In this document: one piece after another, positions 1 to 14,753 of the stretch | Layout: the number at the start of each line of letters is the position of its first letter | Numbering within the stretch: position 1 is the stretch's first letter | Source: Subtercola vilae | GTDB lineage: Bacteria > Actinomycetota > Actinomycetes > Actinomycetales > Microbacteriaceae | DNA length: 39,709 nucleotides | Direction of reading: 5' to 3' | Assembly: GCF_004923255.1 (NCBI RefSeq) | Contig: NZ_QYRT01000035.1 | Coordinates: forward strand, 1 to 39,709 | Translations under genes and position numbers: made by a program | Notes under the pieces: generated by a model | Databases searched by the model: none | The model's input: only the letters and a program-made list of their open reading frames with translations | Told to the model about the DNA's origin: nothing

Positions 1-97
1 GGGGTGGGCCGGGGGCCGCAGGGGGCGGTGGAGGCGAAGAGGGCAGCAGCGCCGGTGCGTCGGCTGGCGGCCCACCGGCCGACAACGTGACCGTCAT
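1..97 (-). CDS. possible start of a further gene of the surface-protein operon (partial)
   Basis: An ATG at 97-95 overlaps the TGA stop (96-94) of the upstream gene as ATGA, the same junction that joins the two genes before it. The frame stays open to the window edge. It encodes an N-terminus rich in Ala and Pro (a PSSPPPPPAAPGPP stretch) without an obvious signal peptide in the visible 32 residues. No function can be assigned. The plus strand offers a competing reading: an open frame from position 3 ends with TGA at 102-104 and would be the Gly-rich C-terminus of a convergent gene. Third-position GC is similar for both, so the ATGA junction is the only reason to prefer the minus strand. Confidence 0.35.
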   Translation of the reverse strand, partial: MTVTLSAGGPPADAPALLPSSPPPPPAAPGPP

Positions 98-900
98 GTG
101 GTGAGCCCGGTTGCACCGACGGGTTCGGGGGCACCCGCATCCGCCGACTCCTCGCCGGCACCGCGAACAATGCGCACCACAGAAGAGGCACCGAGCGCCA
201 CGATGACGAGCACGAGCAGAAACCACGGCAGCACGAACATGAAACCATCGCGAGTGAGAGGCGAGAGGGCGGTACCCTGCACGGTTGCCGGAGGCGTGAA
301 GGTGGCGTGGGTGGTGAAGAAGCTCCACTGCCCGAGCCCGGTGAGAGTCGCGTCGATCAAGCGGGTCTCATCGGGTTTCAGACCGGCGATGGCCACCGTC
401 TGGGGGCGGCCGATCAGGTTTCCGAACGGGCCGACGATCGAAAAGGTGGCCGTGGAGTCGATGGTGGTGCTCGACACGTTGTGCACGGTGAACAGGGCGT
501 GCTGCTCGCCCGCCAGCGGGTTGATGCTCCAGCTGTATTCAGAGCTCACGCCGCTGATGAAGATGAGGCCGCCGAGGTCGAATTCGCCGGCTTTGGCCAC
601 GGGTGCGGCGCTCGGTTGGGCGGTGGGTGTGACAACGGTGCTGCCATTGCCGACCGAGCCCGCGCCTGAGCCGGTCCCCGTGCCCGAACCCGAACCCGCA
701 GAGCCCGCAGAAGCAGCGCCCGCTGCCGCGGCACCGGGCGCCACGGGAACCGTCGTCACAGTGATTCCGATCGATGGGTCATCGGCTGCGAACGCTGCAG
801 CCGGTACGAGACCCGCGGCAAGTGCTGCTGCCAGAGTGAGCGCACCGAGGGAGGTGGCGACGAGCATCCGCCGGGTCACCCGAGTGGCTTTCGGCGTCAT
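94..900 (-). CDS. exported, membrane-anchored DUF916-like surface protein (268 aa)
   Basis: The ATG at 900-898 overlaps the stop of the preceding gene (ATGA), so the two are translationally coupled; the frame extends further upstream but only over that gene. A signal peptide (residues about 7-39, ending PAAAFA-A) is followed by an Ala/Gly/Ser-rich linker. A beta-rich domain follows, containing a GVSSEYSWSINP stretch and a segment like the late Ig-like part of DUF916 proteins (SSTTIDSTATFSIVGPFG). A transmembrane helix near residues 220-243 (FVLPWFLLVLVIVALG) and a short polar tail end the protein. The domain order resembles a short version of the upstream DUF916-type protein. The likely role is a wall-facing, membrane-tethered partner of that protein. 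The exact family is uncertain; export and anchoring are well supported. Confidence 0.75.
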   Translation of the reverse strand: MTPKATRVTRRMLVATSLGALTLAAALAAGLVPAAAFAADDPSIGITVTTVPVAPGAAAAGAASAGSAGSGSGTGTGSGAGSVGNGSTVVTPTAQPSAAPVAKAGEFDLGGLIFISGVSSEYSWSINPLAGEQHALFTVHNVSSTTIDSTATFSIVGPFGNLIGRPQTVAIAGLKPDETRLIDATLTGLGQWSFFTTHATFTPPATVQGTALSPLTRDGFMFVLPWFLLVLVIVALGASSVVRIVRGAGEESADAGAPEPVGATGLTT

Positions 901-1973
901 TGCACCACCGCGTGGCGACGCGCTTCTGCCTCGGTGTACTCGAGCCACGCCGCGGCGATCTTCTCGTCTCGACGGCGACGCAGTCGAATGATCGCGTACA
1001 CGATGAGAGCGATCACCAGCAGGATGATGAGCCACCACGGCATGGCCAGCGTGACGGTGTCGCGGTCGACGTTCGTCAGCGCCCCCGGGTCGAGCGCGTC
1101 ACCGTCGACGAACGGCGCCATGCTGACGTACGGATTGAGGTAGCCGAGCTGACCCACGTCGGGAACCGTCAGCGAGACCGTGCGGGTGCTTCCTGGTAGC
1201 ATCTCTGCCAGATCCTGGCGCACAGGGCTGGCCGCCGCGATTCCGAAGTAGGTGTTCACACCCGCCACCATGTGAGCCGAGAGCGCGATGTTGCCGTTGT
1301 TGCGAATGGTGTACGTGAGAGTGGTTGAGCCCTGCAGCGGGCTCAGTGCCGAGCTGTACGACGCCGAGATGCTGCTGATCGTGAGCGAGGACTGGAGCGC
1401 TCCCGGCACGCGAGCGTAGAGCCGGGTGGCAACGCGCCGGTCGACGAGAATGGCGCCCTGCGCCGACTGCACCGAGATGACGATTCCGGCAGCATGGTCG
1501 CCGGGTGAGGCGTCGGCGGGGGCATCCACGCTGAAGGGAATGACCTTGGTAGCGCCGGGGTCGAGCGGAACCTCGAGCGTCTTCGCGCCACCCGTGAACG
1601 ACACCCAGCTCCCAGCGTCGGTGGGTACAGAGTCGGTTTCGAGCAGGCCGAATGCGCCGTCGTCGGTGTTGTAGGCGTCGGTCGCGAAGACCTTCATCGT
1701 CTCTGGTGTCGTACCGGTGTTGCGAAGCACGTACTGGTCGTCGAGATGCTGGCCCGGTGAGAGTTGGTAGCTGAAGCGAGAACGGCCGTCGGCGCCGTTC
1801 ACCCCGGCCGGCGCGCCGGAGATGCCAGAGGTGTCGTCGTCGGCGTGGGCGGCAGGAGTCGGTGCCGCCGCGAGCAGCAACCCGGCCACGAAGAGGCCCG
1901 AAAGGGCGAGGCCGAGGGGGCGGCGAACCGGGCGAGTCACGTGGCTGAGAAGGGGCACAGTAGATTGATCCAA
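897..1973 (-). CDS. DUF916-type (WxL-interacting protein-like) membrane-anchored surface protein (358 aa)
   Basis: It has a signal peptide (AALLLAAAPTPAAHA-type cleavage), then a first beta domain with the features of the peptidoglycan/WxL-interacting family (DUF916): FSYQLSPGQHLDDQYVLRNTG, GDHAAGIVISV and VDRRVATRLYARVPG. A second Ig-like domain (TYTIRNNGNIALSA) follows, then one transmembrane helix (PWWLIILLVIALIVYAII) and an Arg-rich cytosolic tail. In Firmicutes such proteins bind WxL proteins and peptidoglycan on the cell surface; the WxL-like product encoded just upstream would be the natural partner. The frame opens with TTG at 1973 without a ribosome-binding site; GTG codons at 1958 and 1940 also fit, and 1940 gives the most typical signal peptide. 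A hairpin (2053-2083) and a PHO-box-like repeat (1997-2018) sit in front, so it probably has its own promoter. Confidence 0.82.
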   Translation of the reverse strand: MDQSTVPLLSHVTRPVRRPLGLALSGLFVAGLLLAAAPTPAAHADDDTSGISGAPAGVNGADGRSRFSYQLSPGQHLDDQYVLRNTGTTPETMKVFATDAYNTDDGAFGLLETDSVPTDAGSWVSFTGGAKTLEVPLDPGATKVIPFSVDAPADASPGDHAAGIVISVQSAQGAILVDRRVATRLYARVPGALQSSLTISSISASYSSALSPLQGSTTLTYTIRNNGNIALSAHMVAGVNTYFGIAAASPVRQDLAEMLPGSTRTVSLTVPDVGQLGYLNPYVSMAPFVDGDALDPGALTNVDRDTVTLAMPWWLIILLVIALIVYAIIRLRRRRDEKIAAAWLEYTEAEARRHAVVQ

Positions 1974-1996
1974 ATCGAGTTGGCGTGGCGGGGTGA

Positions 1997-2018
1997 ATCA
2001 GCTGAACCAGAGGTGAAC
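1997..2018 (-). promoter_or_regulatory. PHO-box-like direct repeat upstream of the DUF916-type gene
   Basis: Read on the minus strand, two adjoining 11-nt units, GTTCACCTCTG and GTTCAGCTGAT, both begin GTTCA and match the actinobacterial PhoP box consensus (GTTCACC-type units every 11 bp) at about 9 and 8 of 11 positions. A third TTCACCCCG follows at slightly shorter spacing. The site lies 24 bp before the first possible start codon and downstream of the hairpin at 2053-2083. This fits a separate phosphate-responsive promoter. It was found by eye; no PhoP gene is in the window. Confidence 0.5.
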
Positions 2019-2052
2019 GGAGCTCTGCCGGTGAGAGACGACTGCACCCCAG

Positions 2053-2083
2053 AAGGAGGGGCACCCAGTGGATGCCCCTCCTT
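2053..2083 (-). terminator. strong hairpin after the WxL-like gene
   Basis: A perfect 11-bp stem (AAGGAGGGGCA paired with TGCCCCTCCTT) closes a 9-nt loop, beginning 31 nt after the stop of the gene ending at 2115. There is no T-run after it on the minus strand, as is common for actinobacterial terminators. It probably ends the long pst-type transcript, or lowers read-through into the DUF916-type genes. Confidence 0.7.
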
Positions 2084-2114
2084 CCTTCACACAATCAGTA
2101 CGGTGAAACGGGTG

Positions 2115-3167
2115 TTACTTCGATGCCAGCGTGATGGTGAGCTTGGCCGTGTAGGTGCCGGCCGGCTTGTCGGCAGGAGCGACGAACGTGAGGTCAGCAT
2201 CGAGGTCGGTGCTGGCGATCGCGGCGGTCAGACCCGACGAGGCGAGAAGCGCCGGGTTGACGGCAGAGCCGGCAGCCTGGGCAACGGCGAGTGTCACACC
2301 GGCGGGAAGAGCGGTGGCTCCGGCCTTGGGGGTGATACCGAGCTGCTTCTTGTCGATGGTGGTGGTGCCGTTGGTGAAGTCGGTCACCGAGCTGGTGACA
2401 GTCCACCCCGGGTGCGACACAACACGGCCATCCTGAACCGTGAAATTACCGACGGTGCCGGTGGAGGTCGACAGGTTGTTGACCAGGGTCGCTGCGTTCA
2501 AGACGTTGGTGGTCTTGGCCGACGACACGAGGTTCAGCGTTCCGTCTTGCGCAGCAACGGTGGTCGCCGCGAGGTTCTGGTCGAACGAACCGCTCGGAGG
2601 CGTCGCCGGGCCCGTCGCGACAGGCGTCGCGAAGGTCCAGGCACCGGTCACCGGCGTGACCGTGATGGTCGTGTAGTAGACCGCGCCAGAGGCGATCGAC
2701 AGGGCGTTGTTGTTGGTGAGCGCGAACCCGAGGCTGTACGTACCGCCGTTGGCCTTGACCGAAGCCAGGTTGCCGTTGGTGTGCGAGTCGAGGGTCATGG
2801 TCGGCAGCAGCACATCGTGCGTTCCGGGGTAGAAACCCCCGGGCGCGATGGCGCTCCAGGCTGACGGAGTGCGCTCTGAGCCGACGGGCGCGATGAACGT
2901 GCGCACGTCGGTCGCGTCGGCGACACCGGGGTAGACGACGGTGCCGTCGTTGGTCGCGGTGGGAGAAGCGACGACCTGCTTGTTGAAGGCGAGGGTCGTA
3001 CCGGCCGCGATGGGGTCGCCGGTTGCTGCGTCGAGCAGAAAGATCGGCGCGGTGGAGTTGACCGGCTGAGCGGGGTCAGCGGCGAAGGCAGACGTCGTGG
3101 TGGCACCCATGAGGGCGGCGACGACGATGCCGACCGAGGCCACACGAATGGCGTTTGTCTTGAACAT
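2115..3167 (-). CDS. exported WxL-like surface protein (350 aa)
   Basis: A clear signal peptide (residues 1-29, cleavage near AFA-AD) is followed by an all-beta, Thr/Ser/Ala-rich protein with no transmembrane anchor. The C-terminal part has the layout of the WxL surface domain as found in Actinobacteria: GWTVTSSVTDF at 254-264 (W255-T-V in the place of W-x-L), then LGITPKAG and a final YTAKLTITLASK strand. The second conserved Trp is replaced by Ile (LGITP instead of the usual LGWTP). WxL domains attach non-covalently to peptidoglycan, often together with DUF916 proteins, which follow directly downstream here. It lies 38 bp behind the PstS-like gene ending at 3206. An AAGGA precedes the start at long spacing. 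Family assignment is by motif layout only. Confidence 0.72.
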   Translation of the reverse strand: MFKTNAIRVASVGIVVAALMGATTTSAFAADPAQPVNSTAPIFLLDAATGDPIAAGTTLAFNKQVVASPTATNDGTVVYPGVADATDVRTFIAPVGSERTPSAWSAIAPGGFYPGTHDVLLPTMTLDSHTNGNLASVKANGGTYSLGFALTNNNALSIASGAVYYTTITVTPVTGAWTFATPVATGPATPPSGSFDQNLAATTVAAQDGTLNLVSSAKTTNVLNAATLVNNLSTSTGTVGNFTVQDGRVVSHPGWTVTSSVTDFTNGTTTIDKKQLGITPKAGATALPAGVTLAVAQAAGSAVNPALLASSGLTAAIASTDLDADLTFVAPADKPAGTYTAKLTITLASK

Positions 3168-3205
3168 GAGGGGTATGTATTCCTTAAGTTTCTGTGCGCG
3201 GGGGG

Positions 3206-4306
3206 TTAGATGGTGGCGAAGGCGCGCTGCGCCGTCGTCGAGACGGGGGCAAGGAAACCGAACTTCTTCTTCACAGCGCCCGAGGTGGTGGCGAACGAAC
3301 CGAAGTTGGTGAGGCTCTGGCCGACGGTGGGGTCGATCAGCGCGGCGAGGTTGGCGTCGTACGCAGGGTCGTTGCTGTTGACGCGCTTGTACTCGACGAC
3401 GACGTAGGTGTCGCGGCCGAGGGTGCTCGAGTAGTAGGCCGAGTTGGGAACCAGCGCGGTGCCGGTTCCGGTGAACGGCGCGATGCCGTTGGTGCTGCCG
3501 AGCTGAACGCCGGTGGTGCCGATGGTGCTGACGCCGGTGGCGCCGTTCGACTGGGCGACCCAGCTGGCGGCCGAGAACGGGATGATCTCGTTGGCGCCGA
3601 GCACGGAAGCGTCGTTCTCCGGCGTCGTGTTGTTGACGTCGTTCACCGTCGAGCCGAGCGTGGTCACGCCGATGGCCGAAAGAAAGAACGAACGCGTACC
3701 CGAGCTGCCCTGCGGCAGACGCGGAACAACGACAGCGCCGTTGATGGTGACCGGGGTGTTGCTCTCGTAGACCTGCTTGAGCTGAGCGGTGGTCAGCGCG
3801 CCGATGGCCGCGCTGTCACCCTTGTAGGCATACGAAACGGCGTCACGGGAGTAGGGCACGTAGAGCAGCAGGCCGGCGGCGTTCGCGTTGGCGCCGGGGC
3901 CGCTGGATGAACGGGCGATGTCGACCTGGCCCGAGATGGTCTTGGTGGGAACAGCAGCGTTGCCCGAGTAGAGCGCAGTGCCGTTGATCGAGGCGCGAAG
4001 CGCGTTGACGCCAGCACCCGAGCCTGAGGGGCGGCCGAAGTACGGGCCGTTGGGCTTGGTCTGAATCGACGACGAGCCGAACGCATCGAACGAACCGACG
4101 GTGGCACCGGCCGAGGTCACGCGAACGAACGAGCCGCTGATCGAGGTACCGTTCGTGAGCGCGTTCACCGAGTCCTGCAGCGTGTCGGAGCCCACCAGCA
4201 CGTAGCTGTTGGAGACCGGTTCTGCGTTGGCCGGTGCCGCAAAAGCGAAACCGGCGATGGCGACGCCCACTGCCGCGCCGATGGCGACAATCTTCTTCAT
4301 TTTCAC
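3206..4306 (-). CDS. exported PstS-like substrate-binding protein, short form (366 aa)
   Basis: I place the start at GTG 4306-4304 because AGGA lies 10 nt upstream; the ATG two codons later (4300) would leave a 16-nt gap. The signal peptide (MKKIVAIGAAVGVAIAGFAF...) ends at ANA-E. The mature start carries VLVGSDTLQDSVNALT, the GSDT-type loop typical of actinobacterial PstS-like proteins, and a later LPQGSSGTRSFF corresponds to the phosphate-binding SGSGT loop. There is no lipobox, transmembrane tail or sorting motif, so it should be soluble outside the membrane or bound to partners. It is the third PstS-like gene in a row after pstC-pstA-pstS. The ligand is probably phosphate or a phosphorylated compound; this is inferred from family and position. 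Confidence 0.8.
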   Translation of the reverse strand: MKMKKIVAIGAAVGVAIAGFAFAAPANAEPVSNSYVLVGSDTLQDSVNALTNGTSISGSFVRVTSAGATVGSFDAFGSSSIQTKPNGPYFGRPSGSGAGVNALRASINGTALYSGNAAVPTKTISGQVDIARSSSGPGANANAAGLLLYVPYSRDAVSYAYKGDSAAIGALTTAQLKQVYESNTPVTINGAVVVPRLPQGSSGTRSFFLSAIGVTTLGSTVNDVNNTTPENDASVLGANEIIPFSAASWVAQSNGATGVSTIGTTGVQLGSTNGIAPFTGTGTALVPNSAYYSSTLGRDTYVVVEYKRVNSNDPAYDANLAALIDPTVGQSLTNFGSFATTSGAVKKKFGFLAPVSTTAQRAFATI

Positions 4307-4384
4307 TGTGATGAGTTCCTTTCGGGGGTGACCGGCCAATCGCAGGTGCGAGCGCGCCGACTTGGGTGCACGGGAGCCCGCGAG

Positions 4385-4406
4385 GGTGCCGGTGAACGGG
4401 CCAAGA
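4385..4406 (-). promoter_or_regulatory. weak PHO-box-like repeat upstream of the 366-aa PstS-like gene
   Basis: In the 110-bp gap between the genes ending at 4417 and starting at 4306, the minus strand reads ATTCTTGGCCC followed by GTTCACCGGCA. The second unit matches the PhoP consensus well (about 9 of 11), the first poorly (about 5 of 11). A further GGTCACCCCCG lies beside the ribosome-binding site. An internal promoter is possible but not demonstrated. Confidence 0.25.
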
Positions 4407-4416
4407 ATGGGGGGCA

Positions 4417-7068
4417 TCAGGGTCGTCTCCTGATGCGCGACATGAAGGGGAATGCGAAAGCTGCGCCAAGACCGGCGAGGATGCTCGCCGGTACCGCTGC
4501 CGCGATGGCCCCGTTCTGCGGGTCGGCGGGCGTGGGAGCGCCGAGCAGGGGTGCGGCGGTCTGGCCCGTGGCGGCAGGGTCGGTGATCGTCGGGGCGGCG
4601 GCCGTGACCGGCTGCACCGCCGGTAGGGCCGCCACCGCGACGGGCTTCGAGACGGCGGCGGCAGGAGCCGACACCGGGCTGGGCGAGGGGCTCGCCACGG
4701 GAGTCGCGAGGGGTCCGTTCGCGATGATGGTTGCGGCGGCGAGCGCCTGCCCCTGCCACGCGGCCGGAATGGGCGCGTATCCCTCCGGCAGCTGCCCGAG
4801 CGCCGTGCCCGACACCTGCCCGGTGGTCACCGCATACCGGATGAACGCCGCATAGTCGGCCCTGAGGCTGTCGTCGCCCATTGCCGGGTTCACCGCGGCG
4901 TACACGGGCAGCGTCAGAGGGTAGGCCGTCGGGGTCGCACGGGCGGCAGACGATGTGGGGTCGAACTGACTGACCTGCGCCTGGCTGGCATTCTCTGTCA
5001 TCGCCGCGCCGGCCGCGCTGAGCGAGGCCGTGGTGGGGGCGACGAAGACCCCGGCCGAGTTGCGAAGCGACGCGGAGAAGGTCTGGTATTTCGCCGCACT
5101 CGCCGTGTCGGTGATTCCGATCACACGCTGCAGACCGGCCAGGGCCCGCGCTGTCTTGGTGTACTTCGGTGTCGCCGCCAGCGAATCCCACGGCCCCAGA
5201 ATCTGGCCGTCGCCTCGCAGAATGAGGTACCCGCTCGTGTCGAAGTCGTTGGTGTACGGGCGCCAGGTGACCACGTTCACGGCAGCGGCTCCGGCCGGGT
5301 CTTTGGGCTGTTCAACCGGGTCGGCTTTGGGAAAGTTGTCGCGCGGTAGAACGAGAGCGACACCGGTTGGGTTCTTCGACGCATCGGTCGAGCTGTAGGG
5401 GTTCACGATCATGCCCCACGGATCGGGCTTGCCGGCCAGAAAATCAACGGCCTCTGGGTCAGAGAGCACGTAGCTCCAGAGCGCGAAGGCCGCGTCGGAG
5501 CGGCCCTGCGGCTCGAGCAGGTCGGCGAGGGCAGGCGAGGTGATCTGCTGGTCGGCCCATTCGGGATCGTTGATGGCCAGAAAATCTTTGTCGAGCGTGA
5601 GGTTTCGGGCGTTGTTGCCCGGGTCGGTCGGGCTCTTGTAGTTGATCTGCGATTTGTCGGCACCGGTCGGAAGCGAGTCGAGGTACGAGTTGGTCAGCAG
5701 TTTGGCGAGCAGTCGCGGAGTCAGGTTCAGCGAGGTGAAAGGAGTTCGGGCGTTGTCTGTCGAGGTCTGCGGAATGGTTTTGATGGCGCTCGGTTCGCGA
5801 TCGATGGCGAACGAGATCGAGATACCGGTGAGAGCGATGGGCGCATAGATCAGCGGATCACCCGTGTCGGCCGTCTGAGACAAGGGTCGTGAGGTGAGCG
5901 CCATGGGTTGCTCCACAGTGCTGCTCGCCGCCTGCAGAGCGTCAGACTCGCTGCCCGAGATGATCGTGTACGCCGCGCCGCCTGCCGCCCCGCAGAGGGC
6001 AGGCTGCCACGACGACACCGCCCCCGAGACGAGCTCGCTGCCGGCCAACTGGCGCTCGGCCGACCCGATGGTGCAGCTCACGCCGATGGGCTTGAAGTCG
6101 AGACGGATGGCGACGCGGTGCTTCCAGGCATCGGAGAAGAGGCCCGACTTCGTGATGTTCTGCTCGCCCGTATCGGCGGTGCCTCGCGGAATTATCACGA
6201 GCCAGCACGAGCTGCCGGTCTCTGTGCCGTCGCTGGCTGCGATGCGGGTACCGCACCCGAGACCCGGTGACTGCGCGGCCGTCTGCACCTCGAATTTGAC
6301 CGAACCCGAACCGTTGGCACCCGACCCCGCCCACGAAATCTCGTTGCTGGTCTGCTTGGTGAAGAACTGGTTGTTGTTGACGTCGACCGACTCGTCTTTG
6401 ATGTTGGGCGACCCCTTCGGGTACGCCTTCGGGGGGTTCACCACCGACGCGACGGTGACGCCAGTGGCCGAAACGAAGGGGATCGAGGTGTAGGCAGGGT
6501 CGAGTGGCCCACTGCTGGGCGCCGTGTACTGCAGATCGGCTGTAGCCGTCGTGCCCGGGCTGATGAAAGAGTCTCGCGACGCACCGGGCGTATTGAAAGC
6601 GCCATACTGACACGTTGTACGGTCGGGCTCATCGGTATGACCGTTCAGGTCGCCCCAGCACTGGGCGATCTGCAAGAAATTGGCGCCGCCGGTCTGGCCG
6701 CTCGGCACCTCTGACTTCAGCCCGCCCTTCCACGAGACCTGGATGCCCTGGGCCATCAGGTCTTTGGTCTGCGACACCGTCACCACGAGGTCTTTCATCG
6801 GCGCGTCGGCGATGTCGGCGTCTTGGGAGTACGCCGAGACGGTGACCGCCGACGAGACATCGGCCCGAGCAGACTGGGCCGGGATGACGGCGCCGGTGAG
6901 GGCGACGAGGGCGAACACGGCGCCGCCGACCAGCACACCGGAAAGGCCCTGCAGTATGGCGGAGCGGCGGCGGGGCATCCGGTGCCGCGCCGACGGCGTG
7001 GAAGAGGTAGAAGAGGTAGAAGAGGTAGACGAAGAGACGGAGGCAGACTTCAGGCTCAGAATGGGCAT
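4417..7068 (-). CDS. giant exported PstS-like substrate-binding protein with C-terminal membrane anchor (883 aa)
   Basis: The N-terminus has a Ser/Thr-rich stretch encoded by three copies of a 9-bp repeat, then Arg residues and a signal peptide (LVGGAVFALVALTGAVIPAQSARA). An alternative ATG at 6981 would remove the repeat stretch and give a conventional signal peptide. The long extracellular part contains FLQIAQCWGD and DRTTCQYGAF near residues 140-170, cysteine pairs, and later PstS-like segments (DFLAINDPEWADQQITSPALADLLEPQGRSDAAFALWSYV in pieces). A Pro/Ala-rich linker leads to a hydrophobic helix and a final RIRRRP. Typical PstS proteins are 300-400 aa, so this one is more than double. 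It starts 8 bp after pstS. Co-transcription and the PstS-like parts suggest phosphate binding at the surface; the large extra regions are unassigned. Confidence 0.75.
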   Translation of the reverse strand: MPILSLKSASVSSSTSSTSSTSSTPSARHRMPRRRSAILQGLSGVLVGGAVFALVALTGAVIPAQSARADVSSAVTVSAYSQDADIADAPMKDLVVTVSQTKDLMAQGIQVSWKGGLKSEVPSGQTGGANFLQIAQCWGDLNGHTDEPDRTTCQYGAFNTPGASRDSFISPGTTATADLQYTAPSSGPLDPAYTSIPFVSATGVTVASVVNPPKAYPKGSPNIKDESVDVNNNQFFTKQTSNEISWAGSGANGSGSVKFEVQTAAQSPGLGCGTRIAASDGTETGSSCWLVIIPRGTADTGEQNITKSGLFSDAWKHRVAIRLDFKPIGVSCTIGSAERQLAGSELVSGAVSSWQPALCGAAGGAAYTIISGSESDALQAASSTVEQPMALTSRPLSQTADTGDPLIYAPIALTGISISFAIDREPSAIKTIPQTSTDNARTPFTSLNLTPRLLAKLLTNSYLDSLPTGADKSQINYKSPTDPGNNARNLTLDKDFLAINDPEWADQQITSPALADLLEPQGRSDAAFALWSYVLSDPEAVDFLAGKPDPWGMIVNPYSSTDASKNPTGVALVLPRDNFPKADPVEQPKDPAGAAAVNVVTWRPYTNDFDTSGYLILRGDGQILGPWDSLAATPKYTKTARALAGLQRVIGITDTASAAKYQTFSASLRNSAGVFVAPTTASLSAAGAAMTENASQAQVSQFDPTSSAARATPTAYPLTLPVYAAVNPAMGDDSLRADYAAFIRYAVTTGQVSGTALGQLPEGYAPIPAAWQGQALAAATIIANGPLATPVASPSPSPVSAPAAAVSKPVAVAALPAVQPVTAAAPTITDPAATGQTAAPLLGAPTPADPQNGAIAAAVPASILAGLGAAFAFPFMSRIRRRP
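7001..7027. repeat. 9-bp tandem repeat, three copies
   Basis: GAAGAGGTA occurs three times head to tail. On the minus strand it encodes the Ser-Ser-Thr stretch near the N-terminus of the 883-aa protein. Slippage here would add or remove three residues without a frameshift. Confidence 0.9.
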
Positions 7069-7076
7069 GGCGGGGC

Positions 7077-8723
7077 CTACCTCGGAGAGTTTCGTTTGAG
7101 TCGGCGCGACAGCAACGGCGGCAGAACGATGGCGATGAGCAGCAGCGCTCCGGCCACTGTCATAACAATCTGCTGGGCACCGAAACCGGTGTCGGAGAGG
7201 GCGAGGGGCTTCGAGACGGCCACTGCCGAGCCGCTCGTGGCACCACTGACAACAGATCCGTTCGCGTCATAGACCGCGGTGTTCGAGGCAGCGGCTACCG
7301 CCGGGTCGGCGGCGGTCGCTGCAGCGGGGGCCACCGCCGAAGCTGCGGTATCGGTCGTTGTGGTCAGAGCCGCGGCGGCACCACCCGAGCCCGAGCCACT
7401 GACGTCGGTGGTCGCGGTGGCCCCACCGGTTCCGGTGACGCACTGGTTCGGCCCACGCTGGTCGCAGGCCTGAGGCTGGGGGGCGGTGTCAGCCAGCTTG
7501 TTACTCGCCGGGTTCTTGCCGTCGAAGGTGGGGTTGTTGCAGGTGGCGAGGTTGACACCGGCGGTAGAGGCTCCCGGAATCTTCTTGATCTGATCCGACG
7601 CGGCCTGCACCAGGTTCAGGGGCAGCGGTGAATAGCCGAGCGCTGCCGCCTGCTGCTGCCCCTCGCAGAGCAGATAGTTGGTGAACACGCCGAGGGTCTT
7701 GCCCTTCTCTGCCGTGAAGACGCCGCCCACCTTGGTGGGCACGATCATGTACGAATAACTCGAGAGCGGATAGGTGCGGGCGTCGGCGCTGTTGTACACA
7801 CCGTCGAGAATCTGGGTGAGATAGTCGGGCGAACCCACGGTGGTGTTGATCTGTGCCGAGAGCAACGCAACGGCGACCGACGGAGCAGTGGGTTCGACGT
7901 AGTAGCCGGCCGAGTTCAGCACCTTTGCCACGGGAAAACCCGACTTCAGCGCGTAGGAGTACTCGACGTAGGTGATCGCGCCTTCTCCGTAGTCCTGGCT
8001 CACGTAGCCCGAAACGCCCAGCGAGCCGCTCTGAGCCTTCGACCCTGAGAATTCTGGGTACTGCGAGGTGAGTCCGCAGGGCACGCTGCGCTTCACAGAA
8101 GTGCAGAAGGCATTCCAGAGGTCAGGGTGCTGCTTCGACATCCAGAGCGTGAACTGGGCGGTCGAACCTGAGCCGTCAGAGCGAACCACGGGCGTGATCG
8201 ACTTGTCGGGCATCGCCAGGCCCGGGTTGTCTGTCTGAATGGCGGGGTCATTCCACTTGGAGATCACACCGGTGAAGATCTTCGTGATGACGTCGCCGCT
8301 CAGCCGCAGGTTGGTGACCCGCTTGCCGCCGATCTTCAGGTTGTACATGAACGAGGTGCCGCCCGCCACGATGGGCATGTAGGCGTAGGGCGTCGCCGGG
8401 GCCTCGGGGGCAGAGCCGTCTTCGGGCTTCGCCTGGAATGGAATCTCGCTCACGGCGAAGTCGACGGTACCGGCGATGAAGTCGGCGCGACCGGCCGAGG
8501 AACCGCTGCCCGAGTAGTTGACGGTCATGCCGTAGTTCGAGGCCACATTCTTGCGCCACTGGTCGAGGGCATTCTGTGACCACGTCGAACCGCTGCCGCT
8601 GATGGGGGTGTAGGTGTCAGCCGAGGCGCTCTGCACTGCAACGCCACCGCCGACGCCCGTGAGCATCAGAGCGAGGGCGAAGCCAGCGGTGAGCAGGCGG
8701 ACGAGACGGATGCGCGGCGTCAC
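7077..8723 (-). CDS. pstS: phosphate ABC transporter substrate-binding protein PstS with C-terminal anchor (548 aa)
   Basis: A GTG at 8723 overlaps the pstA stop (GTGA) with GAGGAGA about 8 nt upstream. The signal peptide ends near SASA-D36. Phosphate-binding signatures are clear: ISGSGSTWSQ (41-50), NYSGSGSSAGRADF (69-82), the TVDFAVSE switch region, and RSDGSGST (181-188). After the binding domain (to about residue 400) comes a Thr/Ala/Gly-rich stalk of roughly 100 residues, then LSDTG, a hydrophobic helix and RRLKR. That tail has the architecture of a sortase signal (compare LPxTG or LAxTG), although the motif itself is unusual. The binding protein would thus be held at the membrane or wall rather than as a lipoprotein. 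It follows pstC-pstA; no pstB follows. Confidence 0.92.
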   Translation of the reverse strand: MTPRIRLVRLLTAGFALALMLTGVGGGVAVQSASADTYTPISGSGSTWSQNALDQWRKNVASNYGMTVNYSGSGSSAGRADFIAGTVDFAVSEIPFQAKPEDGSAPEAPATPYAYMPIVAGGTSFMYNLKIGGKRVTNLRLSGDVITKIFTGVISKWNDPAIQTDNPGLAMPDKSITPVVRSDGSGSTAQFTLWMSKQHPDLWNAFCTSVKRSVPCGLTSQYPEFSGSKAQSGSLGVSGYVSQDYGEGAITYVEYSYALKSGFPVAKVLNSAGYYVEPTAPSVAVALLSAQINTTVGSPDYLTQILDGVYNSADARTYPLSSYSYMIVPTKVGGVFTAEKGKTLGVFTNYLLCEGQQQAAALGYSPLPLNLVQAASDQIKKIPGASTAGVNLATCNNPTFDGKNPASNKLADTAPQPQACDQRGPNQCVTGTGGATATTDVSGSGSGGAAAALTTTTDTAASAVAPAAATAADPAVAAASNTAVYDANGSVVSGATSGSAVAVSKPLALSDTGFGAQQIVMTVAGALLLIAIVLPPLLSRRLKRNSPR

Positions 8724-10036
8724 TGAGACGTCTCCTCGGGGTTTGCGGGGGCGGGTGTGCCGGTGGGCTGGGCTGCGAGAGGGGCAGCCGGCGAGGCTGC
8801 GGGCGTGCGGTTCATTCGCCGCGCATCGTCAGCCGACTGGCCTGCCACCCGACGGCGCTGGCGGTCGGAGAGCTGCCCCGGGCCCTTGCCACCGATGAGG
8901 CGGGCAACAACGAACAGCAGCAGCACGAGCAGAATCAGCACGGCAGCTGTTCCGAATCCGCGGGCGATGATGTTCGGCTCCGGCGACTTCACGAAGTCGA
9001 ACACTTGCAGTGGCAGCGAGATCATCGGGCCCGAGAACGGGTTGAGGTTCATCACCGCGGTGATACCCGAGGTGAGCAGAACGGGCGACGTCTCGCCGAT
9101 TCCGCGAGCCGTTCCGAGAATGACCGCCGTGACGAGGCCCGACCGTGCCGTGGGCAGCACCACGCCCCACACCGTGCGCCACCGCGTCGACCCGAGTGCA
9201 TACGAGGCCTCGCGCAGATTGCCGGGCACGAGGCGCAACACCACGTCAGAGGCCCTGATGATGATCGGGAGCATCATCACCGCGATGGCGAGCGCCGCCG
9301 CGAAGCCCGACCGCTGGTGGGTGATGAGCTGGATGATCGCCGCGTACACGAACAATCCCGCAACAATCGATGGCAGTGCTGTCATCGCGTCTGAGATCGT
9401 GCGTACGAACCGCGCGAACCGACCGCCCACCTCATTGAGGAACACCGCCGTCGTGATGCCGAGCGGAATCGTGATGGCCAGCGCGATGCTGATCTGAATC
9501 AGCGTGCCCACGATCGCGTGCGCGATTCCGCCCACGTCGAGCCCGTCGAGCGGCCCGGCGAACTGCATGGTCTGAGTGAAGAAGTTGAGGTGCGGCAGCG
9601 CGATGGTTCCACGACCCACCGTGTAGATCACCACGAACACCAGTGCTCCGAACAGTACGACGCCCGCGCTGATGAGCAGCACCGTCGTGATGCGGTCTTT
9701 CACCTCTTCACGGTCTGATCTCAGCGACACAAGCAGGCTGTAGAACGCGATGAACAGCACAAACGACACCACTACCCAGCCGATGGGCCCGGTCAGCGGA
9801 GTGAACCAGCCGAAGAGCAGGGTGGTGACGGTGGGCCCGGCCACGAGAGCCCCGAGCACGTTGAATTTCTCGTCGAGCGTCGACTCACGCAGGCGCCTCT
9901 TCGGCCCCACCTCGATTCCCGTTCGGTTCGGGACGCTCGTGGGACGTGCCTCCGGGGCCGCCGGGGCAGCCCGTTCTCCCGTCACCGTCACCGCGGTCGC
10001 TGTCGCTGTCGCTGTCGTCACTGTCGCTGTCGTCAC
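8720..10036 (-). CDS. pstA: phosphate ABC transporter permease PstA (438 aa)
   Basis: The best start is GTG 10036, two bases after the pstC stop; another in-frame GTG lies at 10021. The protein has a variable hydrophilic N-terminus, two extra membrane helices (VLGALVAGPTVTTLLFG, VVSFVLFIAFYSLLV) and then the six-helix PstA core. The ATPase-coupling EAA loop is intact: LREASYALGSTRWRTVWGVVLP, with the usual GIGETSPVLL segment after it. The C-terminus is a polar Ala/Pro tail. At 438 aa it is longer than common PstA (about 300 aa). Together with PstC it would form the inner-membrane channel. Because the coupling loop is kept, an ATPase partner is expected, but none is encoded here. It overlaps pstS by 4 bp. 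Confidence 0.93.
   Translation of the reverse strand: MTTATVTTATATATAVTVTGERAAPAAPEARPTSVPNRTGIEVGPKRRLRESTLDEKFNVLGALVAGPTVTTLLFGWFTPLTGPIGWVVVSFVLFIAFYSLLVSLRSDREEVKDRITTVLLISAGVVLFGALVFVVIYTVGRGTIALPHLNFFTQTMQFAGPLDGLDVGGIAHAIVGTLIQISIALAITIPLGITTAVFLNEVGGRFARFVRTISDAMTALPSIVAGLFVYAAIIQLITHQRSGFAAALAIAVMMLPIIIRASDVVLRLVPGNLREASYALGSTRWRTVWGVVLPTARSGLVTAVILGTARGIGETSPVLLTSGITAVMNLNPFSGPMISLPLQVFDFVKSPEPNIIARGFGTAAVLILLVLLLFVVARLIGGKGPGQLSDRQRRRVAGQSADDARRMNRTPAASPAAPLAAQPTGTPAPANPEETSQ
9986..10036. repeat. short tandem repeats at the 5' end of pstA
   Basis: The bases encoding the first residues of PstA are built from repeated TGTCGC/TGTCGTCAC units (plus-strand reading) and give a Thr/Ala/Val stretch. 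Two in-frame GTG codons lie within it, so the number of units would change the N-terminus but not the permease core. Confidence 0.7.
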
Positions 10037-10038
10037 GG

Positions 10039-11190
10039 TCAGCTCGTCTCTGCGCCAGAGCGCGACCGGGCGACGATCGACGACGCGGTGAAGTTGATCG
10101 CGAGAGTGATGAGAAAGAGCACCAGGCCGGCGGCCATCAGCGCCGACAGACCGAACTGGCTCGCTTCGCCGTACCGCAGGGCGATGAGCGCCGAAACCGA
10201 GTTCGTTCCGGTCTTCAGCACCTCCCAGTTGATCGTGAAGATCGGCGAAATGATGAGGTACACGGCGATGGTCTCGCCGAGGGCGCGCCCGAGGCCGAGC
10301 ATGATGCCCCCGATCATCCCGCCGCGACCGAACGGCAGCACAACGGTGCGAATCATGCCCCAACGGGTGGAGCCGAGTGCAAAAGCTGCCTCGCGTTCGC
10401 CGATCGGTGCCTGAGAGAATGCCTCGCGCATCACCGAGGTCTGCGTGGGTACGACCATGAGCCCTACGACGATGCCGGCGATGAACGCTGAGGAGGTGAA
10501 TGCACTGGCCTCGGTGAGCCTCGCACCTGTGCCGTCTTCGACGGCGAACGCGGGAATGAAGCTGAAATAGGTCGAGATCCAGGCCGACACCGGAATGACG
10601 GCGGCCTGGAGGAAGAACAGACCCCACAGCCCGTACACCACACTCGGTACGGCAGCCATGAGGTCGACCAGCGACACCAGGAACGAGCGCAGCGGGCCGC
10701 GCACCACCTCTGACAGCAGCAGTGCTGTACCCACGGCGAGGGGAACTCCGACGCACATCGCGATGATGGCGATGCTGAAAGTGCCGAAGATCACTGCGGC
10801 GATGCCGAACTGGTGAGTCTCAGGCGACCACTGCTGCTCCAGGAGAAAGTTGATGCCGGCCACCTGCAGGGCGTCGCTCGCTCGCAGGGTCAGAAACAAC
10901 CCGACGGCGAGCATGATGCCCACGGTGGTGGCGCCGGCCGTGAACGAGACGCCCTTGAATACTGAGTCTGAGCGGGAGGCGCGCGCCGCGAGTGAGCGTC
11001 GGGCTGCGCCCGGGTGCACAAGGGGTTCAGGGTTGTCTTGACGGGTTCTGCCGGTACCCGTGTGCATCGGTGCGGGTGCGATTGTTCCGATTTCTTCAGC
11101 AATCACACGGGCAACCACCATCTTCTCCGTGGTTTCACGCGTCAGAATGTTGTGAAGGTCGGTGAGCGAGTCGAACTTCTTCTCGACCAT
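10039..11190 (-). CDS. pstC: phosphate ABC transporter permease PstC (383 aa)
   Basis: ATG 11190 is preceded by GGGAGGT at 6-nt spacing, a much better start than the GTG at 11220. A cytosolic N-terminal extension of about 70 residues (charged, starting MVEKKFDSLTDL) precedes the six-helix permease core. Family marks are VPSVVYGLWGLFFL, the EAA loop GEREAAFALGSTRWGMIRTVVLP, and the GRALGETIAVYLI segment. Typical PstC lacks such a long N-terminal extension; its role is unknown. It is the first gene of the operon pstC-pstA-pstS, the reverse of the usual S-C-A-B order, and pstB is absent. A PHO-box-like repeat lies 65 bp before its start, so induction by phosphate starvation is likely. Confidence 0.94.
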   Translation of the reverse strand: MVEKKFDSLTDLHNILTRETTEKMVVARVIAEEIGTIAPAPMHTGTGRTRQDNPEPLVHPGAARRSLAARASRSDSVFKGVSFTAGATTVGIMLAVGLFLTLRASDALQVAGINFLLEQQWSPETHQFGIAAVIFGTFSIAIIAMCVGVPLAVGTALLLSEVVRGPLRSFLVSLVDLMAAVPSVVYGLWGLFFLQAAVIPVSAWISTYFSFIPAFAVEDGTGARLTEASAFTSSAFIAGIVVGLMVVPTQTSVMREAFSQAPIGEREAAFALGSTRWGMIRTVVLPFGRGGMIGGIMLGLGRALGETIAVYLIISPIFTINWEVLKTGTNSVSALIALRYGEASQFGLSALMAAGLVLFLITLAINFTASSIVARSRSGAETS

Positions 11191-11254
11191 GGCGCACCTC
11201 CCTCTCTGCCCGCGCGCCACTCGGCCCGCATACGACAGGTCTGATGGTCATGGC

Positions 11255-11287
11255 CCCGGGTGAACACAGGGTGCCCGGTTCGTGAAG
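11255..11287 (-). promoter_or_regulatory. PHO box (PhoP-binding direct repeats) in front of pstC
   Basis: Read on the minus strand, three adjoining 11-nt units occur: CTTCACGAACC, GGGCACCCTGT and GTTCACCCGGG. The third matches the Streptomyces-type PHO box unit at about 10 of 11 positions; the others match at about 6 and 7 and keep the CAC core in the same 11-bp phase. The position, in the 188-bp gap between the kinase gene and pstC, is where an operon promoter is expected. No convincing -10 element could be fixed; CGTATG near 11230 is possible. Confidence 0.7.
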
Positions 11288-11378
11288 CAGCGGCAGACGC
11301 AGCATGTTGAGAGCACGAGGGGCTCCCCCAGTTGTGGGCACACGCGCGGCAGGGATGGGGCCGGAGTGGTGCGGGCGG

Positions 11379-13334
11379 TCAGGGGCGCGGCGCGCCGGAG
11401 GCGGTGGGCGGCGTGGTCGGCACGGTCGTCGCCGGGGTAGGCGCTGGTGCGGTGGGCGCCGTTGCCACGACCAGGGTGACCGACGTGGCGAGCCTCAGCT
11501 CAGAACCCTCCCCCGGTTCGACGGCAAGCACCGTTCCGACCGGCACACTGCCACTGGTCCTCGCTGCCACGACCACCGCGAACCCGGCGCGCTGGACTAC
11601 CGGCACCGCGTCACCCTGAGTCAGCCCCACCACCCGGGGCACGCTGTTCGACCCCGACGCCACCGTCAGGTCGACTGCCGAGCCGTGTGCTGCCTGCCCA
11701 CCCGTCACCGGCGAAGCTTCGAGAACCGTGTCGTTTGGCAACGCAGAATTCACCGGCGTCACCGTACCGAGCCTGAGGCCCGCGGCCTCGATCTGCCGCT
11801 GCGCTTCTGCCAGCGTGATGCCGTCGACTTCCGGAACGGGCACCATTGCCGCCGCCGCCACAACCGGGCTCGCCGCGGCGGTGGGTAGCGGCAGAGCGCT
11901 CGGTTGTGGGGTGGCGGGCGGGGTGACGGTGGTCGCACCCGGCGCATCGGCACTGCCGGCGGGCGAGCCCGTCGCACTCGCTGCCGGCGGCAGGGCTGCC
12001 GCGGTGCCTCGAGGTGACCCGTTGGCTGCGAGCATCCACACCACGCCTACCGCTGTCGCCGTGAGAATGAGGGTGAGCCACACCGCGCCGCCGCTTCGCC
12101 GACGCGGGCCGACAGTGCCCCGAAGGCTCGCCAACCCGGTGGAGGTACCCGCCGGCATCGCTGCCGATGCGCCGGCGAGCGCTACGTCGTTGAAGCCATC
12201 CTTGGCGCCAGTGACGCCATCGACGGAGTTAGCCACAGGTGTAGCCACAGCGGTAGCCACAGCCGTCAGCATGGTGCCGGGCGCACCGGGCAGCACGGCC
12301 GCTATGCGCAGTACTTCAGCACGCATGGCCTCGGCCGAGGCGAAGCGGGCAGCAGGGTCTTTGAGCAGGGCTTTGGCGAGCATCCGGTCGACTGCTCTCG
12401 GCAGCCCCGGTCGAAGCACAGAGGCGACGGGTGGCGGCGCCGTCAGGTGGGCACGCATCACGGCCTGAGCATGATCACGCACGAAGGGCGGCTGGCCGGT
12501 GAGCGCGAAGAACAGCACCGCGCCCACCTGATAGAGGTCGCCCGGTGCGTCGACGGGTGAGCCGGTCGCCTGCTCTGGCGACATGTAGTTCACGCTGCCG
12601 AGTACTCCGAGCGAGCGGTCGCTCACGGCACTGCGTAGCACGTCGGCACCGAGCGCGGGCCGGCCGGCGGCATCGGCCAGCCCGAAGTCGACCAGCCGCA
12701 CGCCGTCGGCCACCAGAGCAACGCGGCCGTCGGCCCCGCGCGCACGCGCAGCCGCACCAGCAACGCCGTAGCCAACGCCAGCCGCATCGCCGTAGCCAAC
12801 GCCAGCACCAACGCCAACGCCAACGCCGTAGCCAGCGCCCTCGCCAGCGGTACCCCCACCAGCACCAGCAGCGACACCACCCGCACCCGACACCATCACG
12901 TTCGCGGGCGACACATCACGGTGAACCAGGCCGATCGCGTGCGCAGCCGACAGCGCCCGCAGCATGCCATCGGCCAGCGCCAGCGCCTCACCGACACCGA
13001 GCACTCCGTTCGACTCGATGTACTCGGCCAGAGTCGTGCCGGGCGCGCGCTCGAGCGCGATCCACGCCAGCGGTTCGCCGTCGGGGTCGTGCACGCCCAC
13101 ACCCAGTACACCGGCGATATTCGGGTGTCGCAGCGGTTCGGCCGCCCGCGCCTCGACGAAGAACGCCTCGCGGCTTTCGGGCGAGTGCGACAGATGCGGG
13201 TGCAGGATCTTCAGCGCCACCCGTTCGTCGGTCAGCACATCGACCGCCTCGAACACCGACGCAGAACCTCCGCTGCCGAGCAGGTCGCCGAGCGCGAAAC
13301 GGGCCGAGACGAGGCCGGGGGGTCGAGCATCCAT
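11379..13334 (-). CDS. membrane Ser/Thr protein kinase with two PASTA domains (651 aa)
   Basis: The start is ATG 13334, four bases after the stop of the lytic transglycosylase gene. The kinase domain (about 10-360) has a Gly-rich loop (LLGSGGSASVFEA), K42 in VALK, a helix-C Glu (E61), HRD (138-140), N145, DFG (216-218) and MSPEQ. The catalytic-loop Lys is replaced by Ser (HRDVSPAN), a change also seen in some active kinases. An Ala/Gly/Tyr-rich insertion of about 50 residues (150-203) sits between the catalytic loop and DFG. A linker, one membrane helix (AVWLTLILTATAVGVVWML) and two PASTA repeats (starting VPVPEVDGITLAEAQ and VPRVVGLTQGDAV) follow. PASTA domains bind peptidoglycan or muropeptides. 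This is a PknB-like architecture with fewer PASTA units than usual. It may act on growth or wall enzymes such as its neighbour. Confidence 0.92.
   Translation of the reverse strand: MDARPPGLVSARFALGDLLGSGGSASVFEAVDVLTDERVALKILHPHLSHSPESREAFFVEARAAEPLRHPNIAGVLGVGVHDPDGEPLAWIALERAPGTTLAEYIESNGVLGVGEALALADGMLRALSAAHAIGLVHRDVSPANVMVSGAGGVAAGAGGGTAGEGAGYGVGVGVGAGVGYGDAAGVGYGVAGAAARARGADGRVALVADGVRLVDFGLADAAGRPALGADVLRSAVSDRSLGVLGSVNYMSPEQATGSPVDAPGDLYQVGAVLFFALTGQPPFVRDHAQAVMRAHLTAPPPVASVLRPGLPRAVDRMLAKALLKDPAARFASAEAMRAEVLRIAAVLPGAPGTMLTAVATAVATPVANSVDGVTGAKDGFNDVALAGASAAMPAGTSTGLASLRGTVGPRRRSGGAVWLTLILTATAVGVVWMLAANGSPRGTAAALPPAASATGSPAGSADAPGATTVTPPATPQPSALPLPTAAASPVVAAAAMVPVPEVDGITLAEAQRQIEAAGLRLGTVTPVNSALPNDTVLEASPVTGGQAAHGSAVDLTVASGSNSVPRVVGLTQGDAVPVVQRAGFAVVVAARTSGSVPVGTVLAVEPGEGSELRLATSVTLVVATAPTAPAPTPATTVPTTPPTASGAPRP
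12735..12890. repeat. imperfect tandem repeats encoding a Gly/Ala/Tyr-rich kinase insertion
   Basis: Units related to GCCGTAGCCAACGCCAGC and GCCAACGCC recur here (plus-strand reading). On the minus strand they encode runs of Val-Gly, Ala-Gly and Tyr-Gly inside the kinase domain, between HRDVSPANV and DFG. Repeat number may vary between strains. Confidence 0.85.
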
Positions 13335-13338
13335 CGGC

Positions 13339-14088
13339 TCAGCCGACCGCAGCGGCATACCGATTGGCGGTCTCGGCCACAGCATCGACGTACGATTCGA
13401 CATGATTGTAGGCGAACACGGATGCCCGCCAGCCCGCCGCACCCGACAGGTCGCCGTAGCTGCAGAGGTAGCGCCCTGCCGCAAGCGAGGCGTCGTCGAT
13501 CTGCTGGGGGTCGCTCACGCCGTCGCCGTTGCCGTCGGCTCCCCACCGCATCCAGGTCGACGGGATGAACTGCAGAGGCCCCACGGCACGGTCACCGTTC
13601 GCGGTGCCGTCGAGGGCTCCCCCGTCGGTGTCACTGACCGCGGGATACTCTGAGCCGTCGAGCGCGGGGCCGTAGATCGCAGGGCTCGCGGCACCGTCGG
13701 CAGTGATCGTCGATCCCGCGTGGGTTCCGTGCGCCGACTCGATCGAGCCGAGTGCCGCCAGGGTGTTCCACCCGACGTGGCACTGGGGCAGCTCCCTCGC
13801 GAGCGCCAGCGCCGTGCCCGCGTAGCCCACGAGCGCACGGTACGGGATGCCCGTGCGGGCCGCACTCGCGGTCGCCCACGTCGGGTCGACCAACGCTGCG
13901 TCGCCGCCCGCGCCGCCCGCACTTTGCGTTGCAGCTGCGGTGTTCGATCCGACCGCGGAAGCCTCAGCCACCCCAGCCCCCTGCGAACCACCCGTGGCCG
14001 CCAGACCGCGCGCTTGTGGCGTGAGTAGGCCCACGCCGATGAACAGACCGAACAGCACCAGCGCCGACACCAGCAGCGCCCTCACCAC
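13339..14088 (-). CDS. lytic transglycosylase (MltB/SLT_2-like), membrane-anchored (249 aa)
   Basis: Start candidates are GTG 14088 and GTG 14085; the latter overlaps the preceding stop as GTGA. A longer reading would run over the gene upstream. One N-terminal membrane helix (ALLVSALVLFGLFIGVGLL) precedes a low-complexity linker and the catalytic domain. The domain shows WNTLAALGSIESAHGTHAGS (E of IES as the likely catalytic acid), GPALDG, DTDGG, DRAVGPLQFIPSTWMRWGADGNGDG in pieces, DPQQIDDASLAAGRYLC and SVFAYNHVESYV. These are the features of actinobacterial transglycosylases that cleave the MurNAc-GlcNAc bond of peptidoglycan. It sits 4 bp before the PASTA kinase gene, suggesting joint expression and possible regulation of wall hydrolysis by the kinase. 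Confidence 0.9.
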   Translation of the reverse strand: MVRALLVSALVLFGLFIGVGLLTPQARGLAATGGSQGAGVAEASAVGSNTAAATQSAGGAGGDAALVDPTWATASAARTGIPYRALVGYAGTALALARELPQCHVGWNTLAALGSIESAHGTHAGSTITADGAASPAIYGPALDGSEYPAVSDTDGGALDGTANGDRAVGPLQFIPSTWMRWGADGNGDGVSDPQQIDDASLAAGRYLCSYGDLSGAAGWRASVFAYNHVESYVDAVAETANRYAAAVG

Positions 14089-14753
14089 GCGGCGACCCCG
14101 TCGCGCATGAGCGCGTGCTGGGCGCTCCGCACCGGCGCGTTCGAGCGAGTGGCTCGCGAGCCCTCCGAGACGAATGCTGACGCCAGCGCGTGCACTGAGT
14201 ACGCTGCCGACTCCCGGCTGAGCGCCGCGGCCCCATACCAGCGGCCACACGACATCACCGAAACATTGTCGATCGTCACGTACCAGCCGTGCTGGCCTGC
14301 GCCGGGGCCGGTGATGGGCATGACGGTCATCTCGTCTGTCTGCTGCCGCAGCTGCAGAACGTGCGCGCGGGCAGAGCTCAGCGACTCGTAGAGAAACAGG
14401 CTGCGCGCCACCTCGCGGTTGTTCGACGCGAGCAGTCGCCAGATGCCTGAACGGGCATCCGGTGTCAGGGCCGTCGCACGGGGCGACCGGGCGACCGGGG
14501 CCAAGCGGGGCTCACCAGAGGGCTGGAGCGTGCGCCCCGCTCTCGCTGCGCTTGCGCGCGCGCCTTGGCGAACGTGCTCCCGAAAGGTCGACCAGCCCAG
14601 TAACACCGGGTCGTTTCGCGAGGCGAACTGCGAGAAGAAGATGCTCGGGTTCGCTGTCACAGTCACCTCGCCTCGTACTGTCGCCGACGCCACGCCCAAT
14701 CGGGCGACGAGGCTCAGCCTGTACTGTGCCGCCCACGGGTTGACCACGGGCAT
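14082..14753 (-). CDS. unknown protein, C-terminal part weakly YegP-like (223 aa)
   Basis: The codons have the high third-position GC of real genes throughout, and the 3' end overlaps the lytic transglycosylase start, so a genuine gene is likely. The C-terminal half (GIWRLLASNNREVARSLF, YESLSSARAHVLQLRQQ, GWYVTIDNVSVMSCGRWY) has the strand-helix rhythm of small DUF1508/YegP domains, but this is a weak likeness. No signal peptide or membrane helix is seen. The start is uncertain: ATG 14753 has no ribosome-binding site, and an internal GTG in GEVTVTANPS is preceded by GAGGTG. Function unknown; its position suggests a link to the wall-related pair downstream. Confidence 0.6.
   Translation of the reverse strand: MPVVNPWAAQYRLSLVARLGVASATVRGEVTVTANPSIFFSQFASRNDPVLLGWSTFREHVRQGARASAARAGRTLQPSGEPRLAPVARSPRATALTPDARSGIWRLLASNNREVARSLFLYESLSSARAHVLQLRQQTDEMTVMPITGPGAGQHGWYVTIDNVSVMSCGRWYGAAALSRESAAYSVHALASAFVSEGSRATRSNAPVRSAQHALMRDGVAAW

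Follow-up and report, generated by a model that had tools for sequence, protein, structure and literature searches.

Introduction

Among the described systems that come closest to the locus reported here are the phosphate importer PstSCAB, an ATP-binding cassette (ABC) transporter, the WxL/WxLIP gene clusters of Firmicutes, the PstS paralogues of Mycobacterium tuberculosis and the sortases. For phosphate import, the available part of PMC7866108 describes the PHO box as two 11-base direct repeats, and a pocket aspartate that forms a low-barrier hydrogen bond helping to discriminate phosphate from arsenate. Here we describe a Pst-type operon of Subtercola vilae, which reaches the edge of contig C33 (NZ_QYRT01000035.1) in a 4.04-Mb draft genome of 103 contigs (GCF_004923255.1). 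The window analysed is the whole of this contig, 39,709 bases from first to last. The initial annotation of the window took the operon to be devoid of pstB. This absence is an assembly artefact: the operon is cut by the contig end, and behind the break stand pstB and a gene for a predicted non-catalytic sortase. We propose, with a probability of about one half, that the locus encodes a Pst-type phosphate-starvation importer with a wall-embedded capture assembly built on a non-catalytic sortase scaffold.

Results

All genes of the operon lie on the minus strand and head toward base 1, and the operon runs off the first base of C33. The stop codon of its last complete gene, P0008 (94..900), overlaps the ATG at 97-95 of a further gene (1..97), whose frame, read by eye, leaves the contig edge. 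A TIGR00972 search of the genome gave two strong Pst ATPase matches, both on contig C8, one of 354.2 bits at 10853-11617 and one of 325.7 bits at 102668-103429, the latter about 1 kb from the contig end. This second pstB is preceded by an open frame of 300 residues that reaches the end of C8. The last 11 bases of C8 are the first 11 bases of C33, and reading the frame through this overlap yields a single sortase-like protein of 329 residues, followed by pstB (on the minus strand of the C8 stretch L002, the remainder of the sortase-like gene at 2423-3325 and pstB at 1498-2364). By itself an 11-base overlap is weak evidence, and it is the gene order in relatives that bears the claim of continuity. 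In their uncut loci the order is pstC-pstA-pstS-BigS-solS-(WxL-like)-(DUF916)-(transmembrane protein)-sortase-like-pstB, where BigS is a large and solS a secreted PstS-like protein. The sortase-like gene and pstB are at the expected place in all ten relatives' loci, and the core genes stand in the same order in all ten; three of these loci (L021, L023 and L024) belong to genomes of the same genus that are assembled as one contig. The complete set of ten genes is found in eight of the ten; L029 gave no matches to P0006, P0007 and P0008, and L030 none to P0006 and P0008.

Thus, pstB is missing from the window because C33 ends inside the operon. The initial annotation was wrong in stating that there is no ATPase, and its proposal that PstB is borrowed from another locus, which had nothing beyond the contig edge in its favour, is refuted by the dedicated pstB that closes the operon here and in the relatives. 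It had itself named a pstB linked through an assembly error as the finding that would speak against it, and this is what we encountered across C33 and C8. The search for a single pstB elsewhere in the genome, which it had proposed as a check, gave two strong Pst ATPases, one of them the operon's own. A classical pstS-C-A-B operon, whose PstS carries a lipobox, does lie elsewhere on C8. Among 79 homologues of the operon PstB, Walker A is kept in 78, and LSGGQ and MDEP are kept in all 79; the S. vilae protein has its motifs intact, yet its score stays below the TIGR00972 cut-off of 343.2 bits.

The conserved gene between P0008 and pstB, beyond the edge of the window, is the most unusual component of the operon. 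In a profile search against solved chains its product matches sortases with E values down to 8.3e-13, and PF04203 matches 11 of 11 family members. Three further sortases of the same genome, with the usual His and Cys motifs, served as alignment reference. The catalytic His is replaced by Arg in 81 of 81 family members, and no Cys was found anywhere in the sortase domain of these proteins. In the best-aligned case, the position of the catalytic Cys is occupied by Ala in 77 proteins, by Ser in 3 and by Thr in 1; against two of the three classical sortases (L113 and L114) it shifts one residue on, to Arg, Thr and others, and is never Cys. The triad Arg has no safe placement in the alignment. The domain is flanked by one N-terminal transmembrane segment and, in 65 of 71 proteins, by two C-terminal ones. 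Judged by these residues, the protein is a pseudosortase, predicted to be non-catalytic. A text search also picked out, in the member L033, a TLxTC-like string that lies beyond the part aligned as sortase domain.

Relatives of BigS were sought in 84,980 species genomes, which gave 266 stretches, and the best 80 of these were examined as loci. Counts over these 80 and the ten relatives' loci include three contigs twice, as judged by their equal lengths (L034=L028, L092=L027 and L105=L026). As the loci were collected through BigS, its own constancy is by construction, that of the other genes is not, and the sample consists of Pst operons with BigS. Carriers among the best 80 include Microbacteriaceae (Herbiconiux, Cryobacterium, Microbacterium, Leifsonia and Agromyces among them), Propionibacteriaceae, Tessaracoccus, a Cellulomonas bin, Streptomyces, Planotetraspora and Actinacidiphila. 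BigS was present in 50 of 249 genomes and 27 of 78 genera drawn from the family of the window, and in 11 of 396 genomes of a phylum-wide draw, own genome included. Where the sequence continues for 9 kb or more beyond BigS, as it does in 67 of the 80 loci, the sortase-like gene and pstB are both present without exception. The other 13 loci were too short to count, and one of these, L064, has its pstB split into three frames. None of the 11 distant loci of the phylum-wide draw lacks pstC, pstA, pstS, BigS or the sortase-like gene, and 10 of them have pstB, the remaining locus (L131) being cut by a contig end. Their order varies, with BigS before pstC in L136 and pstB before pstC in L137. The core set therefore recurs across Actinomycetota, and the co-occurrence in other Microbacteriaceae that the initial annotation had asked about is found, in the relatives' loci for the core. 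A mirror-tree comparison of six core genes over 64 loci gave rank correlations of 0.50 to 0.87, which we give no weight, as it had no unrelated control gene.

These data also bear on the view that this is an ordinary second Pst operon alongside which unrelated surface genes have drifted in. Eight compact operons (L104 and L106-L112), which have no WxL-like, DUF916-like or P0008 genes, would fit it, but BigS and the pseudosortase are present in all loci examined, found as these were through BigS, and in 67 of 67 both stand inside the operon, between pstA/pstS and pstB. We regard drift as very unlikely.

Two BigS matches each, one often far lower-scoring, were seen in seven genomes of the family (G483, G507, G527, G534, G563, G599 and G644), possibly a second version of the system. 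A further PstS-like gene stands behind pstB in some Microbacterium loci, at about 18-20 kb in L051, L061, L070, L072, L084 and L086 and at about 11 kb in L065.

The permease genes of the window are clear, and their initial assignment holds: pstC (10039..11190, ATG at 11190) scores 236.8 bits with TIGR02138 (cut-off 196.45) and pstA (8720..10036, start uncertain, GTG 10036 or 10021) 220.0 bits with TIGR00974 (cut-off 193.45). They are followed by pstS (P0003, 7077..8723), in the order C-A-S noted at first and seen in the relatives as well. Its product scores 223.0 bits with TIGR00975 (cut-off 205) and has a signal peptide, a C-terminal transmembrane segment and no lipobox, so that the anchored PstS first reported is borne out; a transmembrane-like tail is present in 77 of 77 operon PstS. 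The GSGST/S motif is kept, as is the RSDGSG loop in nearly all of 87 proteins. A candidate LPXTG-type sorting signal on PstS was rejected: LSDTG occurs in the window protein alone and is not conserved among 11 aligned.

BigS (P0004, 4417..7068) has 883 residues and was rightly described as PstS-like with a membrane tail. Its C-terminal part matches TIGR00975 (E 9e-8) and M. tuberculosis PstS1 chains (E 1.4e-9), and a transmembrane-like tail is found in 71 of 80 proteins. The extra N-terminal region has six cysteines, conserved at 98 to 100% in 57 sequences. Read by eye, the ligand loop of the window protein seems degenerate, with RSDAA in place of RSDGSG. The next gene, solS (3206..4306, start GTG 4306 or ATG 4300), encodes the protein first called soluble and PstS-like. 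It is indeed secreted, and none of 77 has a C-terminal transmembrane segment, but its kinship with PstS is weaker than had been stated: of 11 homologues, 3 match PF12849, and the motifs were recognised by eye.

The assignments of the following genes were likewise only partly upheld. P0006 (2115..3167), secreted, can be called WxL-like only weakly: of 22 homologues, 2 matched PF13731 (best E 0.003), and P0006 itself gave no match. For P0007 (897..1973), the DUF916 (WxLIP_PGBD) assignment stands, with all 19 homologues matching PF06030 at E<=0.1 and the protein itself scoring 26.8 bits against a cut-off of 27.3, and 54 of 63 proteins of this type have a transmembrane-like tail, as P0007 does. 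DUF3324 was absent among the 25 families displayed for these 19 homologues, one further family being undisplayed. P0008, whose ATG at 900 overlaps the preceding stop codon, is anchored by a transmembrane segment, but it gave no DUF916 match and is instead similar to P0007 over the latter's C-terminal half (hhalign probability 99.6, E 2e-24).

Upstream of pstC, at 11255..11276 on the minus strand, the two 11-base units GGGCACCCTGT-GTTCACCCGGG form a PHO-box-like pair with a score of 16 of 18, reached by none of 100 shuffles. Scoring used a unit consensus that we take to be that of the PHO box. The single unit GTTCAYY stands upstream of pstC in 50 of 70 regions when the coding strand is read, and in 5 of 70 when the opposite strand is; among random windows 793 of 7000 contain it, and among shuffles 166 of 3500.

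Two genes on the same strand are linked neighbours of the operon. One (11379..13484, start codon uncertain) encodes a Ser/Thr kinase with Pkinase and PASTA matches, and the other (13339..14250) an SLT_2 transglycosylase-like protein (PF13406, 25.3 bits, cut-off 24.3). A homologue of the PASTA kinase lies near the operon in 51 of 71 loci, 46 times just upstream on the same strand and five times on the far side, behind pstB, with a PASTA domain found in four of these five. Shared descent inflates the count of 46, and that of the far-side loci less so. The S. vilae genome has only five PASTA open reading frames in its 4.04 Mb, so that the chance of meeting one in a 22-kb stretch is about 3%. A match to the SLT_2 protein was seen in 32 of 90 loci; the gene is linked to the operon in part of the loci, and lies on its other side in a few genomes.

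In FtsEX, ATP powers transmembrane signalling that controls the cutting of the wall. By analogy, the present ABC core might use ATP mainly for such signalling and less for import, with the PASTA kinase and the transglycosylase as partners, and the kinase linkage, the SLT_2 protein and the DUF916 domain within the operon would agree with this. However, 14 of the 61 loci that extend 3 kb upstream have no kinase, and it is absent from the Streptomyces-type and distant loci; a PstS with its ligand loop kept, together with a full permease pair, favours transport. We consider wall control quite unlikely to be the main task of the system.

The window also contains two ABC exporter genes that overlap each other (ABC_membrane and ABC_tran, at 26726-28540 and 28537-30330, minus strand), unrelated to the operon.

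Discussion

The plainest reading of the locus is a complete importer of the Pst type, probably under phosphate control, to which two constant components, BigS and the pseudosortase, and a variable set of wall proteins have been added. What the initial annotation had called a surface assembly that captures or senses phosphate thus survives as a conserved assembly joined to a Pst-type transporter that has its own ATPase. From the gene content, order and conserved residues, we infer the following mechanism. At low phosphate, PhoP would induce the operon. The anchored PstS would deliver its ligand, phosphate or a small phosphate-containing compound, to PstCA, with PstB driving uptake. BigS and the pseudosortase may form a membrane scaffold around the permease, in which the dead sortase fold would hold the long Pro/Ala/Ser-rich tails of PstS and BigS, with no cleavage. 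The solS protein could reside in the wall and pass the ligand inward, as might the WxL- and DUF916-like proteins in operons of the Microbacteriaceae type, and the linked PASTA kinase and transglycosylase might adapt the assembly to the growing wall.

Several observations weigh against this importer reading. A minority of the regions, 21 of 71 including the classical pstS control, have a full two-unit PHO box whose score is attained by no more than 5 of 100 shuffles. The sequence likeness of BigS to PstS is confined to its last part, and that of solS is weak (probability 3.4 and E 0.013 in the profile comparison; E 0.03 for the best solved chain). Another PstS was present in 20 of 21 carriers checked; the operon is not their sole system and must therefore provide something beyond ordinary uptake, which we suggest to be wall-bound capture. 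In the single carrier where no other PstS was found (G234), the operon is perhaps the only Pst, or the draft genome has a gap.

The residue at the key position of PstS also speaks against it. The residue aligned with the classical key Asp, presumably the aspartate that discriminates phosphate from arsenate, is Glu in 80 of 87 operon PstS (Glu93 in the window protein) and Asp in seven, from Streptomyces, Planotetraspora and Actinacidiphila loci. Among proteins fetched from the 21 carriers (17 of their 22 listed operon PstS), operon PstS have Glu in 13 of 17, Asp in 3 and Ser in 1, whereas classical PstS have Asp in 12 of 12. This may point to a ligand other than plain phosphate, so that the system could be a transporter or sensor for a phosphate ester, a phosphonate or another oxyanion, with a Pst frame and an altered pocket. 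The classical Pst that usually accompanies it in the genome would suit such a role. However, the remaining phosphate loop is kept, the Streptomyces and Planotetraspora members retain Asp, and the upstream boxes are PHO-box-like, and we consider another ligand unlikely. Lone anchored PstS paralogues with Glu at the key Asp were also seen in two genomes of the same genus (L170, about 8128-10296; L171, about 7899-9929), with no further operon gene within the 18-kb stretch around them.

On the assembly preferred here, a wall-embedded phosphate importer, we venture a more specific and tentative proposal, somewhat unlikely on balance: a catalytically stripped sortase fold might serve a phosphate ABC importer as a structural subunit that holds anchored binding proteins by their tails, and the whole might form a wall-spanning phosphate relay coupled to wall remodelling through the linked PASTA kinase and transglycosylase. 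If this is true, sortase folds gain a role besides cutting and joining proteins, and the system bears on an open problem in thick-walled bacteria, namely how their binding proteins gain access to nutrients across the wall and supply a membrane transporter. The operon proteins also provide a natural set of PstS with Glu at the aspartate held, in the available part of PMC7866108, to govern discrimination between phosphate and arsenate.

The initial annotation knew of no described system with this make-up, and we likewise found no description of this gene set in the open-access literature, subscription journals being mostly outside the search. Compared with PstSCAB, the operon shares PstC, PstA and PstS above curated cut-offs, a PstB with intact motifs and the PstS phosphate loop. 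It differs in the order C-A-S...B, in a PstS anchored by a C-terminal transmembrane segment instead of a lipobox, in the Glu for Asp of most PstS, in the additional conserved BigS and pseudosortase, and in a PstB below the TIGR00972 cut-off. The pseudosortase resembles sortases in its Pfam match and its matches to solved sortases, but has Arg for His, no Cys in the domain, a shortened loop and two extra C-terminal transmembrane segments. As in the Firmicutes WxL/WxLIP (DUF916-DUF3324) clusters, as far as the available part of PMC10599100 describes them, DUF916 is followed by a C-terminal transmembrane segment and accompanied by a candidate WxL-like partner gene; unlike there, no DUF3324 match was seen among the displayed families, the WxL match is weak, the host is actinobacterial and the genes are joined to an ABC importer. 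Finally, M. tuberculosis also has multiple PstS in one genome, but in the part of PMC7866108 available these are separate phosphate-binding proteins, whereas here a single operon encodes PstS, two PstS-like proteins, one large and one secreted, and a pseudosortase.

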